From the NCBI GenBank assembly GCA_003139795.1, contig PLGM01000134.1, forward strand, positions 1 through 32,142: a stretch of DNA of 32,142 bases, read 5' to 3'. Of the stretch, positions 16,725-22,605 are shown in pieces. Source of the stretch: Acidobacteriaceae bacterium (GTDB lineage: Bacteria > Acidobacteriota > Terriglobia > Terriglobales > Acidobacteriaceae). The notes under the pieces are model-generated. The model saw only the letters and a program-made list of their open reading frames with translations, made no database searches and was not told the origin of the DNA. Both the position numbers and the translations under genes were made by a program. The first letter of the stretch is position 1. Every line of letters starts with the position of its first letter.

Positions 16725-17546
16725 CAGGTCCGCACACGTGGTACTCGGTACTGGGGGCTCTTCGGCTCCGTACACTTCGTACTCCGTGCTGGCGCCTTTC
16801 GGCTCCGCACACGTTGTACTCCATTCTGGTACCTATCAACTCCCGGCACGTAGCACTTCATGCTGGCGCCTTTCGGCTCCGCACACGCGGTGCTCCATGC
16901 TGGCGCCTATCAACTCCCGACACGTCGTACTCCATGCTGGCGCCTTGCGGCTCCGCACATGCAGTGCGCCATGCTGGTGCCTTTCAGCTCCCGACACATC
17001 GTACTCCATGCTGGCGCCTTGCGGCTCCGCACACACAGTACGCAATGCCGGTACCCTTCAGCCCCTCTCACGTCGCGCTCCATGCTGGCGCCTTTCGGCT
17101 CCGCACATGCAGTGCGCCATGCTGGTGCCTTCCAGCTCCCAACACGTCGTACTCCATGCTGGCGCCTTTCGGCTCCGCACACGCAGTACTCCCTGCTGGT
17201 GCTTTTCGGCTCCGCCCACGTAATACTCCACGCTTGGAGCCTTGCGGCTCCTTACACTTCGTATTCCATGGTAGGGCTTCTCGGCTCCGCCCACGCAATA
17301 CTCCATGCTTGGAACCTTGCGGCTCCTCACACTTCGAATTACATGGTCGTGCTTTTCGGCTCCGCCCACGTAATATTCCATGCTTGGAACCTTGCGGCTC
17401 CTTACACTTCGTATTACTTGGTCGGGCTTTTCGGCTCCGGCCTTGTAATACTCCATGCTAGGGCCTTGCGGCTCCTAACACTTCGTATTCCATGGTCGGG
17501 CTTTTCAGCTCCGTACACACAGTATTCCATGCTCGTGCTTTTCGGT
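16725..17546. repeat. Minisatellite, 22 imperfect units of 37-38 bp with 74-75 bp higher-order period
   Basis: I aligned the element ATGCTGG/ATGGT in each unit and found copies at 16748, 16786, 16823, 16860, 16897, 16934, 16971, 17008, 17045, 17082, 17119, 17156, 17193, 17230, 17268, 17305, 17343, 17380, 17418, 17455, 17492 and 17529: steps of 37, sometimes 38. A typical unit reads CTTTCGGCTCCGCACACG followed by TAGTACTCCATGCTGGCGC. Units alternate between a CGGCTCCGCACA type and a CAGCTCCCGACA type, giving a dimer. In the right half dimers are nearly identical (CTTGCGGCTCCTTACACTTC). Each unit can form a small hairpin around GGCGCC TTTC GGCTCC. As 37 is not a multiple of 3, the long ORFs here are not coding. 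Function unknown. Confidence 0.92.
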
Positions 17547-17759: not shown

Positions 17760-19151
17760 TCAGTGCGCGGCATGTTCTGAGGCGGCATCCTCCATCGGGG
17801 CCGGCGCGGGCAGTTCGAAAACCTGGATGGCGCCGGCGTTCAGCAAGGCCACGCGCCGTCCGGACGGCGAGATGGCCACGTTGCCGCCGGCATCCAGCGC
17901 CGGACTGGCTGGCGCCTCCAGCGCCACCTTGCCGTTAGCCGCATCGAATACCCTCACCCGTTGGCCTTTCACGTCCTCGCTCTCGAGCGGCGAGTAGGCG
18001 TTGACCGCGTGGGTGACGGCCAGCGTCTCCTGCGCCAGCCGCGAGCCATCCGGCGCCATCACCACCAGCGGCCAGATCGCCGCCGGCGAGCCCTGATCCT
18101 CCCAAAGCCGGCGGCCGTCGGTGGCCATCGCCACCAGTTTCCGTCCGCCCGATGAAGCGCAGGCGGTCACCAGCAACTCCCGTTGCGAGACAAAATCGAA
18201 GCCTGGCGAGCAGGCTGAGTTCACGCGCCCCAGAACCGCACTGCCGCCACTGAAATAATTCAGATTCAGCAGCCATTGCTCCCCGTTGCCGCGCAAGCTC
18301 TCCAGGTAGCCCTCGGAGTTGATGGGCAAATGGACGGTCGAGCGAACGCGGCTCACCAGCATCACCTCGCCGGAATCCCGGCGCAGGATGCGCACCACCA
18401 GATCGGGTTGCCCGCCAGACTTCCGCTCATCCACAACCATGTCGACCGCGGCTGTCGCGGGGCTCCCCACTTGGCCGGGCTTTTGCTCCGCCGCCCCCGG
18501 GGTCCCCGGCGATGGGTTTTGGTCGCTGGGGTGGGCTGCGGGCTCACGGGAGTTGGTCACCAGAAACTGCTGCGTCGGATCCATCTCCAGCCCCAGCAGC
18601 GGCCCCGGAAAACGCAGGAAAGGCTTCAACTCCAGCGTGGCGTCTCCCTGCTCAAGACTATCCCGGTCCCGCAGCAGGAAGTGGCCGTCCTTCAGCGCCC
18701 ACAGGTAGCGCGACCGGTCGTGCACGGTCCATAAGGCTTCGGACTCGACCGTCCCGGCAGGCAGCGCCAGCACCACGGCGCGGATCTGGCGCTCGTCGCC
18801 CCACGCGCTGTCTCCCGCCTCGCGGCGCATCAGTCCCGGCACGCGAAAGGTAAACAGCAGGCGGTTTTCGTCCAGAAAATCCAGCGAGGCCAGGCTGTTG
18901 CGCTGGCCCAGGTAGATGGCGCCGGGCGCGGAGAAACCCAGCGGATCCACGGGAATCGTGAACACGGGCGGCAGGGTGGGCTTTTCCGGGAGCCGCTCGG
19001 GATGCGTGCGCTCCTTGCCCGCGCGGGACTGTTCCGTCGGGAACGCGGCGCTGCCCTGCGCCTGCCCCGCCGGCGCCGCGCACAGCGGCAGCCCAGCCAG
19101 GACCAGCCAAAGGCCCGCATGAATCCACAGAGTTCGCAGCCGTTTCACCAT
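17760..19151 (-). CDS. Secreted hypothetical protein, beta-propeller-like
   Basis: The 463-aa protein has a signal peptide (LWLVLAGLPLCAAPAGQAQ, cleavage near residue 33) and then short beta-strand blocks such as LASLDFLDENRLLFTF, RYLWALKDGHFLLRDRD, LGLEMDPTQQFLV, RKLVAMATDGRRLWED, ALDAGGNVAISPSGRRVALL and GAIQVFEL, spaced like WD40 or YVTN blades. No catalytic motif is seen. Related proteins are annotated as hypothetical in acidobacteria. At about residues 204-218 it carries HPSDQNPSPGTPGA, encoded by a degenerate copy of the palindromic repeat found in the CPBP gene. It is divergent from a small membrane protein gene, 173 bp away. The start ATG at 19151 lacks a clear ribosome binding site. 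Confidence 0.7.
   Translation of the reverse strand: MVKRLRTLWIHAGLWLVLAGLPLCAAPAGQAQGSAAFPTEQSRAGKERTHPERLPEKPTLPPVFTIPVDPLGFSAPGAIYLGQRNSLASLDFLDENRLLFTFRVPGLMRREAGDSAWGDERQIRAVVLALPAGTVESEALWTVHDRSRYLWALKDGHFLLRDRDSLEQGDATLELKPFLRFPGPLLGLEMDPTQQFLVTNSREPAAHPSDQNPSPGTPGAAEQKPGQVGSPATAAVDMVVDERKSGGQPDLVVRILRRDSGEVMLVSRVRSTVHLPINSEGYLESLRGNGEQWLLNLNYFSGGSAVLGRVNSACSPGFDFVSQRELLVTACASSGGRKLVAMATDGRRLWEDQGSPAAIWPLVVMAPDGSRLAQETLAVTHAVNAYSPLESEDVKGQRVRVFDAANGKVALEAPASPALDAGGNVAISPSGRRVALLNAGAIQVFELPAPAPMEDAASEHAAH
18499..18538. repeat. Degenerate single copy of the 42-bp palindromic repeat, inside a coding region
   Basis: GGGGTCCCCGGCGATGGG-TTTTGGTCGCTGGGGTGG aligns with the repeat GGGGTCCCCAGCGACAGG-CATTTGTCGCTGGGGTGG at 22072-22329, sharing both arms. 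The hairpin here is partly lost. It keeps the reading frame of the host gene, and is read as HPSDQNPSPGTPG, a different frame of the repeat from that used in the CPBP gene. Confidence 0.7.
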
Positions 19152-19324
19152 CGAACCATATTCTCGCCGATGGGACGGGCTTTTGACAGTGATGCGCCTC
19201 TCCCCCGCGGGCGCGGCAACTCCAGGAACCCCCGTTCCATGGTCAGCGCGCCCTTGACTCCGTCCATCAAGGGTTCTCTAATTGATCCGGCGTTCGCGTT
19301 TTCCCAGGTACGGAGGTGAAACGG

Positions 19325-20757: not shown

Positions 20758-21468
20758 ATGGCAGAAGACACAGCGTCACCCTCCGGCAGGAAGAACTCCG
20801 TCGCCGCACACAGCAGGCGGCGCAGTTTCTTCGAGCTTGCCATCGCCTATGCGCTCATTCTGCTCGTCATCTGGACGCCGCGTCCCTGGCAAAAACTGCT
20901 CTGGTGGGTCGCTGCCGCCGCGGTCGTGATCATCACCTCGATCTCGTTCGACGGCCTGAAGGCTATGGGCCTGCGCACGGCAAACTTTCTCCGTTCGCTC
21001 TGGGTGACAGGCGCGGCGCTCGTGGTGGCTGCGGTCGCCGTCATCGTCGCCATCCAGCTTCACACGCTGCGTCTGCCCGGTGGTCCCATTCTGTTCATCA
21101 AAACCTACTGGGCCTATGCGCTCTGGGCCTGCGTGCAGCAGTTCCTGCTGCTGGGATTCTTTCTGCCGCGGTTCCTGCGCCTGCTGCCGGGCACGAAGTC
21201 CGCAGCAATCCTTGCGGCCGTTCTATTCGCGCTTGCGCATCTGCCCAATCCCATCCTTACGCCGGTCACATTACTCTGGGGCTTTGCCGCCTGCCTCGTC
21301 TTTCTCCGCTACCGCAACCTCTATCCACTCGCCCTGGCGCACGCTATCCTCGGCATCGCCATCGCCATCACAATTCCCGGACCCGTGGACCATAACATGC
21401 GGGTAGGCCTCGGCTATCTCACCTACCGCCACCACGCGCCCCATCCGGTTCAGTTACCGCAACCATAG
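20758..21468 (+). CDS. CPBP-family membrane protein with QQ in place of the catalytic EE
   Basis: The 236-aa membrane protein has about eight hydrophobic segments and the CPBP (CAAX protease/bacteriocin-processing) fold. Motif 1, normally EExxxRG, reads VQQFLLLGFFLPR at about 122-134, with two glutamines where the catalytic and metal-binding glutamates belong. Motif 2 is intact (FALAHLPNP, about 157-165), and motif 3 is HAILG (about 198-202). I recall acidobacterial relatives with QQF at this place, so it is probably a defined subfamily, not a recent mutation. It may be a non-proteolytic membrane protein. It overlaps the convergent CPBP protease gene by 15 bp at the 3' end. No strong ribosome binding site is present before the ATG. 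Confidence 0.8.
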   Translation: MAEDTASPSGRKNSVAAHSRRRSFFELAIAYALILLVIWTPRPWQKLLWWVAAAAVVIITSISFDGLKAMGLRTANFLRSLWVTGAALVVAAVAVIVAIQLHTLRLPGGPILFIKTYWAYALWACVQQFLLLGFFLPRFLRLLPGTKSAAILAAVLFALAHLPNPILTPVTLLWGFAACLVFLRYRNLYPLALAHAILGIAIAITIPGPVDHNMRVGLGYLTYRHHAPHPVQLPQP

Positions 21469-22605
21469 AGACCAGATCGCGTCCACCGTGGCGTGGGTGA
21501 CCGCGGATGCTCCCACCCGCCGCTGCTGCCGCCACGCCCGCCCATAGAACACTCCCGCCACCGCCGCCAGCAAGACATAGCGCCAGTTGAACAGCACCGC
21601 CCGCTTGTTGAAGTGGGCGAGTCCAAACAGCACCGCCGTCAGAAACAGCGCCGGCGTGCGTCCCATGCGCCGTTCCAGAAGATTCTGGAGCCATCCCCGG
21701 AAGAAGAGCTCTTCCGGCACCGCGATGAAGAAGAAGGTGAAAACCCATGCGCCGGCAATTGGCGCCAGCCCCGGCCACCCCCGGTGCAAATGCAGAAAGC
21801 CCAACCCCAGGCCCAGCGCCAGCGCCAGCGGCATATACAGGGCCACCTCCCGCAGGCCGATCGCGGCATCGCGCAGCCGCAGGCGCAGGTCGAAGCCGAT
21901 CCCCTCCAGTTGCCGCACCGCGATGAAGCCGTAGATGCCCGCATCCAGCAGCAGCATTTTGCTGAAGATGGCCAGGTGGGCCGGCCACGCGCCCTCAAAC
22001 CAGCGCAGATCGACCGCCAGACCCAACACCGCCAGAACCAGAAAATCCCGCCAGTTGCCGCGCTGGACACCGGGGTCACCAGCGACAGGCGTTTGTCGCT
22101 GGGGTGGCTGACCGGGGTCCCCAGCGACAGGCATTTGTCGCTGGGGTGGCTGACCGGGGTCCCCAGCGACAGGCATTTGTCGCTGGGGTGACAGATCGGG
22201 TTCCCCAGCGACAGGCATTTGTCCCTGGGGTGGTTGGACACCGGGGTCCCCAGCGACAGGCGTTTGTCGCTGGGGTGGCTGACCGGGGTCCCCAGCGACA
22301 GGCATTTGTCGCTGGGGTGGCTGGATGCCGGGGTCCGCGCGCCCAGCCTGCCAAAGCAGGCTCGCCACCGCCACCGGAAGCACGGCATACAACGCAAACC
22401 ACCCCCAGCGGAACACGCCGCCGCCGCACGCCACCAGCACATAGGGCACGCTCAACCCAGCGGGAGACACAAGTTGCGCCCACACCGGCAGCCTGCGCGG
22501 CCGCCCGGTCACGCTCTGCGGAAAGAATGCCGCTATCACAAGCGGGCTCAGCGTGAGCAAGGCAGCGATCAAATTAGCCGGCGTGATCATGGTTCTCAAC
22601 TCCAT
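21454..22605 (-). CDS. CPBP-family intramembrane metalloprotease with a 42-bp repeat insertion
   Basis: The 383-aa membrane protein is a CAAX-type glutamic/metalloprotease with intact motifs: EELFFRG (298-304), FGLAHFN (H331) and THATVD (H371). TM segments are seen at about 8-28, 45-62, 68-84, 188-200, 212-230, 253-272, 284-298, 317-330 and 343-355. Between two TM segments, residues about 95-181 are six 14-15-aa repeats (QPPQRQMPVAGDPG), encoded by hairpin DNA repeats. I chose the ATG at 22605, preceded by GGGAGGGAGG at 6 bases; upstream in-frame ATGs add a charged leader without support. Substrate unknown; relatives process prenylated proteins or bacteriocins. The repeat segment is probably a surface loop with little effect on the fold. 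Confidence 0.88.
   Translation of the reverse strand: MELRTMITPANLIAALLTLSPLVIAAFFPQSVTGRPRRLPVWAQLVSPAGLSVPYVLVACGGGVFRWGWFALYAVLPVAVASLLWQAGRADPGIQPPQRQMPVAGDPGQPPQRQTPVAGDPGVQPPQGQMPVAGEPDLSPQRQMPVAGDPGQPPQRQMPVAGDPGQPPQRQTPVAGDPGVQRGNWRDFLVLAVLGLAVDLRWFEGAWPAHLAIFSKMLLLDAGIYGFIAVRQLEGIGFDLRLRLRDAAIGLREVALYMPLALALGLGLGFLHLHRGWPGLAPIAGAWVFTFFFIAVPEELFFRGWLQNLLERRMGRTPALFLTAVLFGLAHFNKRAVLFNWRYVLLAAVAGVFYGRAWRQQRRVGASAVTHATVDAIWSLWLR
22072..22329. repeat. Six tandem copies of a 42/45-bp palindromic repeat inside the CPBP gene
   Basis: Units begin at 22072, 22114, 22156, 22198 (45 bp), 22243 and 22285 (45 bp), and a partial one at 22330. The core is CCCCAGCGACA-GGCATT-TGTCGCTGGGG, a perfect 11-bp hairpin with a 6-base loop; copies differ at one or two bases, and the fourth has one stem mismatch. 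Unit lengths are multiples of three, so the host frame is kept, and all three minus-strand frames of the repeat are open (QPPQRQMPVAGD, HPSDKCLSLGTP, ATPATNACRWGP). A degenerate copy lies at 18499-18538. Confidence 0.93.

Follow-up and report, generated by a model that had tools for sequence, protein, structure and literature searches.

A 38-bp palindromic element dispersed in Acidobacteriaceae and its probable tandem expansion in an intramembrane protease gene

A tandem array of six hairpins in the gene of a CPBP/Rce1-like intramembrane protease very probably arose when a non-autonomous mobile palindrome, with a unit of 38 bp and a target duplication of 4 bp, expanded in tandem. The element is dispersed within one Acidobacteriaceae genus, duplicates its target, is matched by empty sites in relatives, and keeps the reading frame in genes. 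The array lies in a contig of 32,142 nucleotides from an Acidobacteriaceae bacterium (GenBank assembly GCA_003139795.1, contig PLGM01000134.1, positions 1 to 32,142), and this whole stretch of analyzed DNA is referred to as the window.

The array and its host gene

The host gene occupies positions 21457..22590 of the minus strand, and its product matches PF02517 (E 4.2e-19). TRF places the array, on the same strand, at 22069..22323, with a period of 42, 6.0 copies, and 89% matches. Individual copies of the element were located with R1, a covariance model built from an alignment of ten copies. Its six minus-strand matches in the array lie at 22067-22107, 22109-22149, 22151-22191, 22193-22233, 22238-22278, and 22280-22320, with unit starts spaced 42, 42, 42, 45, and 42 bp apart. 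The 11-bp stem is fully paired in four of the six units and carries one mismatch each in those at 22079 and 22205. For instance, the unit nearest the N-terminal side of the gene (22280..22320, minus strand) has a perfect 11-bp stem and scores 67.9 bits, while the lowest-scoring unit (22193..22233, minus strand) reaches 60.3 bits, with one stem mismatch and a GGGGAACCCGATC end. A sequence-only reading of the window had described six tandem units with perfect or near-perfect 11-bp hairpins, and both points hold. Its further claim, that the repeat is open in all three frames, does not. Over 22072-22329, the minus-strand frames contain 0, 0, and 1 stops and the plus-strand frames 1, 3, and 0; stops are thus present in three of six frames, with the host gene's own frame open.

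In the CPBP protein, the array forms an insertion after ADPG that is absent from all 20 aligned relatives. The earlier reading had proposed an addition of about 86 residues to a membrane protease; the insertion and the kind of protein stand, and the size is 87. The proposed location between transmembrane segments agrees with an AlphaFold2 model (mean pLDDT 71.9), in which the insert falls between two predicted helices (residues 62-85 and 180-193). Ten-residue pLDDT means are 42-58 across residues 91-180 of the model, with no helix or strand, and the insert is accordingly predicted to be an unstructured, low-confidence coil over about residues 91-179.

The same site was read by eye in loci fetched from relatives, and was found empty in 25 of 29 (one locus, L256, was unreadable). 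It is occupied by other inserts in L237 and L255, and by one unit in L238, a locus of genome G003, where a second palindrome is nested in the loop of the unit. Since a single unit in G003 compares with six here at the same site, copy number varies, a property for which the earlier reading had proposed a test. The single unit also points to a founding single insertion. In the CPBP gene, unequal duplication would then have raised one such insertion to six units, giving the protein a disordered loop of 87 residues between two of its membrane helices.

A second copy in the window is single and diverged (18494..18534, minus strand; R1 43.9 bits, 5.3e-9), and lies inside an open frame (17763-19277, minus strand) that matches no Pfam family at E ≤ 0.001. 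A different element, a 37-bp (and 75-bp) tandem repeat of the GGCGCCTTTCGGCTCCGCACACGTCGTACTCCATGCT type, is present in ~22 degenerate copies at 16729-17545. Identity of the palindrome with a known RNA family was excluded by an Rfam search at the gathering threshold, in which the element matched no family. The only Rfam match in the window is a group II intron (D1-D4-6, 132 bits) elsewhere, at 1025-1261 on the minus strand.

Dispersal, unit structure, and target duplication

The repeat is a dispersed family and is not confined to the CPBP gene. In the genome that carries the array, a draft of 412 contigs, a pattern search returned 19 strand-wise matches (several of which are both strands of one palindrome) versus none for a reversed-pattern control, with copies on seven contigs besides that of the window. 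The first look at this genome scored 150 of 10,681 candidates, and copy counts may be low. Searching it with R1 gave 96 rows at E ≤ 1; 12 reverse-strand echoes and six weak or partial rows were left out by hand, and the 78 kept were merged into 66 arrays. From a further set, 125 of 173 rows were carried; the others were echoes, along with a few rows that were weak or partial. The relatives are mostly MAGs. Among 60 genomes searched, R1 matches (E ≤ 1e-3) are present in all 36 of the same genus, the array-bearing genome included, with at least 3 to at least 110 matches each. Weaker matches (at least 1 to at least 11) occur in seven of 14 genomes from another family of the same order, and one of ten genomes from other families of the class has matches. 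The copy count proposed earlier for this genome and its relatives thus gives dozens of copies in the former and a presence throughout the genus. An exact-pattern search of a named genome collection yielded 89 stretches, and all 80 of those listed are from Acidobacteria; one isolate, Occallatibacter savannae AB23, carries the exact element among the matches listed. Agreement in coordinates suggests that this isolate is G009 of the genomes searched, which would place the array-bearing genome in its GTDB genus. Acidobacteriaceae assemblies with the element measure 2.7-6.7 Mb. Four viral contigs (L275-L278) also carry the exact element.

Host proteins are diverse. Pfam matches were obtained for eight of ten host proteins scanned from the array-bearing genome, and include asparaginase, PMT_2, DUF885, UvrD with PD-(D/E)XK, a PUA/SAM methyltransferase, DNA polymerase III delta', a nucleotidyltransferase with hexapeptide repeats, and a DEAD/Lhr helicase. 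The hosts GatB, MutM, TrpA, and GalT were assigned their names via solved relatives.

The 38-bp unit has the form CCACCCC-stem-loop-stem-GGGGACCCCGG. Its two ends are common to the copies and make up an imperfect terminal inverted repeat, while the stems vary (AGCGAC, ACGGAC, and others), with matching changes on both arms as judged by eye. The boundaries were set with position profiles of 90 isolated 41-bp copies, from which tandem and composite copies had been dropped. The terminal GG is nearly constant at the right end (86 and 80 of the 90 copies), which is not so on the left, and the agreement between flanks spaced 42 bp apart is strongest at the last four positions. A first guess of a 36-bp element with a 6-bp duplication was ruled out by these profiles, since the terminal GG is part of the element. 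Long forms of 54-69 bp also occur. Those of 68 bp in the array-bearing genome, such as C364:1012-1079, C338:11055-11122, and C161:14175-14242, apparently contain a further hairpin within their loop.

Target duplications matching at all four positions were found in 23 of 161 arrays, versus 1.3 on average and at most 6 in 2000 permutations; the rest of the 166 arrays had no flank or a repeated flank. In a later set from four relatives, five of 28 arrays have such a duplication (mean 0.5, maximum 4; 5000 permutations), 38 of the original 67 having been dropped as already seen and one for a missing flank. Both sets were then pooled and tandem remnants and similar flanks removed, and 14 of the resulting 94 strictly single, mutually unlike copies show the full duplication (permuted mean 0.84, maximum 6; 5000 permutations). 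The duplicated 4-bp target is variable in sequence. Because duplications exceed chance, the element moves or has moved. The other 80 single copies do not match at all four positions, as expected if many copies are old, or if other events were involved too. A 38-bp unit plus a 4-bp target duplication amounts to a net 42 bp, which is exactly 14 codons.

This net gain is observed directly where filled and empty sites can be compared. Of 30 GatB loci fetched, 22 are empty, with 24 nt between two anchors, while the eight filled loci are longer by 42 nt (five), 39 nt (two), or 54 nt (one). These inserts are read as occupying three positions of one loop, and R1 matches seven of the eight in place, six at 31 to 53.9 bits and that of L219 at 23, with no match to the insert of L217. 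Against solved GatB chains, the insert appears as a 14-residue gap. In TrpA, the corresponding interval is 9 nt in 28 of 30 loci, 51 nt in the array-bearing genome (+42), and 42 nt in L325 (+33); both inserts are matched by R1, the latter at 38.2 bits and the former weakly, at 21.4 bits. Thus, the filled site exceeds the empty one by 42 bp in five of the eight filled GatB loci and in the TrpA gene of the array-bearing genome. Together with the target duplications, these cases bear out the earlier suggestion of a palindrome that is mobile and that enters genes, GatB and TrpA being unrelated and conserved. A MutM loop that holds a copy (L279-L308) measures 33-132 nt depending on the species and is always a multiple of three, but its length varies in all 30 loci and it offers no clean empty-site case.

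Reading frames and hairpin tips

Arrays were called genic by a home-made codon score rather than by a gene finder. By this score, 40 of 166 arrays are genic (22 of 66 in the array-bearing genome and 18 of 100 in relatives, whose loci were picked by exact pattern), 12 are classed as "frameshift?", and 114 are intergenic or unclear. Random sites in the same loci were called genic in only 51% (array-bearing genome) and 50% (relatives) of cases, from which it follows that the caller undercalls genes. Element copies are nonetheless depleted in genes relative to these sites, and the majority are not called genic. The 12 "frameshift?" arrays represent 7% of arrays versus 1% of random sites and may include real frame breaks, for example L163.

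Where tandem copies lie in genes, the frame is preserved, and elsewhere it need not be. Among tandem copies, the spacing is divisible by three in 18 of 19 genic cases versus nine of 18 others (Fisher p 0.003); the same test by array is weaker (11 of 12 versus eight of 17, p 0.019). The single genic case that departs from this, L159, sits in a transposase-like frame; read by eye, its net addition remains 30 codons. The 40 genic arrays draw on all six frames of the element, albeit unevenly (18, 9, 6, 4, 2, and 1; chi-square p 2e-5), a result that weighs against the proposed interpretation. The sequence-only reading had named two outcomes that would speak against it, namely a repeat confined to this gene, or one that is mostly intergenic and shows no frame preservation. 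The repeat is not confined to the CPBP gene; most copies were indeed not called genic, yet the frame is kept in the genic ones.

Stop-freeness, which had been credited with letting the palindrome enter genes without harm, is a different matter. Shuffles of the consensus that preserve the palindrome are stop-free in six frames in 94% of cases, versus 37% of plain shuffles. Openness is thus to be expected of a GC-rich palindrome and is no sign of adaptation; six-frame openness as an adaptation to coding was rejected on these grounds. Genic copies are no more open (21 of 31 in the array-bearing genome and 26 of 28 in relatives) than other copies (32 of 47 and 90 of 97, respectively). One length in three is divisible by three by chance alone, and the element may just happen to be suited to genes from the outset.

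Outside genes, we infer that hairpin tips are favored targets. Inverted flanks of at least 7 bp surround 29 of 121 non-genic arrays (permuted mean 4.2, maximum 13) versus one of 40 genic arrays, so that roughly a quarter of copies not called genic occupy the tip of a longer inverted repeat, although these counts are not independent events because the copies of one genome, G029, share one composite. That genome has ten copies (L339-L348) with one and the same sequence over 41 bp. The nine for which both flanks are present lie in a near-identical, terminator-like hairpin (GGCCCGGCT...GCCGGGCCCTTTT), and the outer flanks are similar too, suggesting a recent burst or the spread of a composite. Several other cases with inverted flanks also recur as composites, such as GGTGGCTTTT...AAAAAGCCAC. 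Some copies, then, have spread within a larger repeat, or one repeated terminator has been hit repeatedly.

Mobilization and comparison with known repeats

Under the preferred explanation, an enzyme would cut the target with a 4-bp stagger and paste the element in. Outside genes, the element would prefer hairpin tips that are already present, for instance those of terminators. As 38 plus 4 is a multiple of three and a GC-rich palindrome is mostly free of stops, insertions into genes would usually add 14 residues to a loop; those in which the added loop is tolerated would survive, with selection filtering genic insertions. A bolder version is possible, though rather doubtful. It sees a codon-length selfish element, in which a 38-bp hairpin, an enzyme opening hairpin tips with a 4-bp stagger, a 14-codon net insertion, and six-frame readability have together allowed spread through coding sequence across the genus, as a continuing source of protein loops in free-living bacteria.

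The nature of the enzyme bears on how the element is classified. An ordinary REP spread by a RAYT (an IS200/IS605-like tyrosine transposase) and occasionally overlapping genes would be in keeping with the REP-like size, palindrome, and copy number of the element. The array-bearing genome has three PF01797 matches, and the passages of PMC3733652 cited here describe a group of such transposases particular to Acidobacteria, some of them flanked by repeats. Neither end of the 38-bp consensus CCACCCC...GGGGACCCCGG has a GTAG or CGTC tag, however, and the element makes a 4-bp target duplication of variable sequence, while known IS200/IS605 members are said, in the relevant passages of PMC2817692, not to generate larger target duplications. 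No R1 match was found in the 12 PF01797 loci searched, out of many more PF01797 matches, and the number of PF01797 matches does not correlate with element copy number over 35 genomes (rho 0.09, p 0.60). RAYTs were rejected as the mobilizer on these results, and the REP account as a whole is improbable. A MITE moved in trans by a DDE-type transposase that recognizes CCACCCC and CCGGGGTCCCC ends can be put forward tentatively: the target duplication has a constant length and the ends form an imperfect terminal inverted repeat, both in keeping with a cut-and-paste mechanism. Against it, 38 bp is very short for a MITE moved by a DDE enzyme, and the fetched loci contain no full-length partner with these ends. 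A scan of 134 right ends, and of left ends, in those loci found no transposase or longer relative bearing the ends of the element; seven lone ends were flagged as candidates for an autonomous partner, and all proved by eye to be variants or long forms. Such a transposase would name the enzyme class for the preferred explanation and does not contradict it.

Two further accounts leave mobility aside. The near-identical tandem units, and the difference in copy number from G003, are what would be expected of a plain minisatellite, i.e., a gene-internal repeat grown by slippage that resembles sequences elsewhere by chance. Yet single 38-bp units stand at dozens of unrelated places, with stem changes on both arms (by eye) and target duplications, which makes this account hardly tenable; slippage explains just the growth from one to six units and remains as a second step, but is contradicted as a full account. 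It is likewise very improbable that the array was domesticated, in the sense of being maintained for a regulatory effect of its repeated peptide or mRNA hairpins on the protease. The frame is kept across six units and the insert is modeled between helices, but the site is empty in 25 of 29 relatives' loci (by eye), the insert is predicted to be unstructured, and the same element occurs in unrelated enzymes.

As a mobile palindrome, the element functions like a rickettsial palindromic element (RPE), an analogy that the sequence-only reading had drawn and that holds at this level, and it also works like a MITE. RPEs, as described in the cited passages of PMC2229807, are dispersed palindromes found in frame in unrelated conserved genes and also between genes, with empty relatives; one RPE-bearing enzyme is reported there to be active. 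In-frame palindromes in conserved genes with empty orthologous sites are likewise seen here in GatB and TrpA. By the descriptions in the same passages, RPEs measure 105-146 bp and their target duplication is marked "?", versus 38 bp and a 4-bp duplication here, and the present element uses six frames and resides in Acidobacteriaceae. Size does not decide RPE membership, since RPE-4 and RPE-6 are equated with short CGTC-tagged repeats in part of PMC3733652, a tag that the acidobacterial element does not have.

REP/BIME sequences are also high-copy palindromes of 20-40 bp, both single and tandem, and the element agrees with them at 38 bp and at least 3 to at least 110 copies per same-genus genome. 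It differs in two REP characteristics: it does not have the GTAG/CGTC end tetranucleotide of the definition given in PMC3733652 (in the passages cited), and it shows no association or correlation with RAYTs, a trait of GTAG repeats only, in 12 loci and 35 genomes, respectively. Its target duplication is a further difference. MITEs such as ERIC, Correia/NEMIS, and RU resemble it in being non-autonomous, with inverted ends, target duplication in several, and reported in-frame fusions (PMC2229807 and PMC10969869, in the parts on these repeats). A target-site duplication is present in the element as well, but MITEs measure about 100-200 bp in the passages of PMC2229807 cited, versus 38 bp, and no parent insertion sequence for it was found in the fetched loci.

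Palindrome tips are targeted by other mobile DNA, too, although by larger elements. IS1397-type elements insert into the loops of REP hairpins and are full insertion sequences, in contrast to a 38-bp element. The best-known small palindromes within genes are those of Rickettsia and the REPs of several species, Opitutus terrae (O. terrae) among them. Intragenic GTAG/CGTC REPs are reported from several species in the relevant passages of PMC3733652, with the highest numbers in O. terrae and Rickettsia conorii. Among the best matches in the open-access literature (main texts), no report of an acidobacterial intragenic palindrome family was found.

The family described here, from soil and peat Acidobacteria, can be compared across dozens of related genomes, has both occupied and empty sites within the same conserved enzymes, and shows a measurable target duplication. 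It makes testable how palindromes move, what selection tolerates in genes, and how new protein loops are seeded, and the one genome with ten identical copies adds to its value for such questions. Other in-gene repeats, with peptides like HPSDKDK..VARVGHPD and FDSAQGRLRHK, were encountered in the MutM gene of G031 (L284) and in an Lhr-type helicase gene (L084, C348), and apparently represent further intragenic palindrome families of the same genus.
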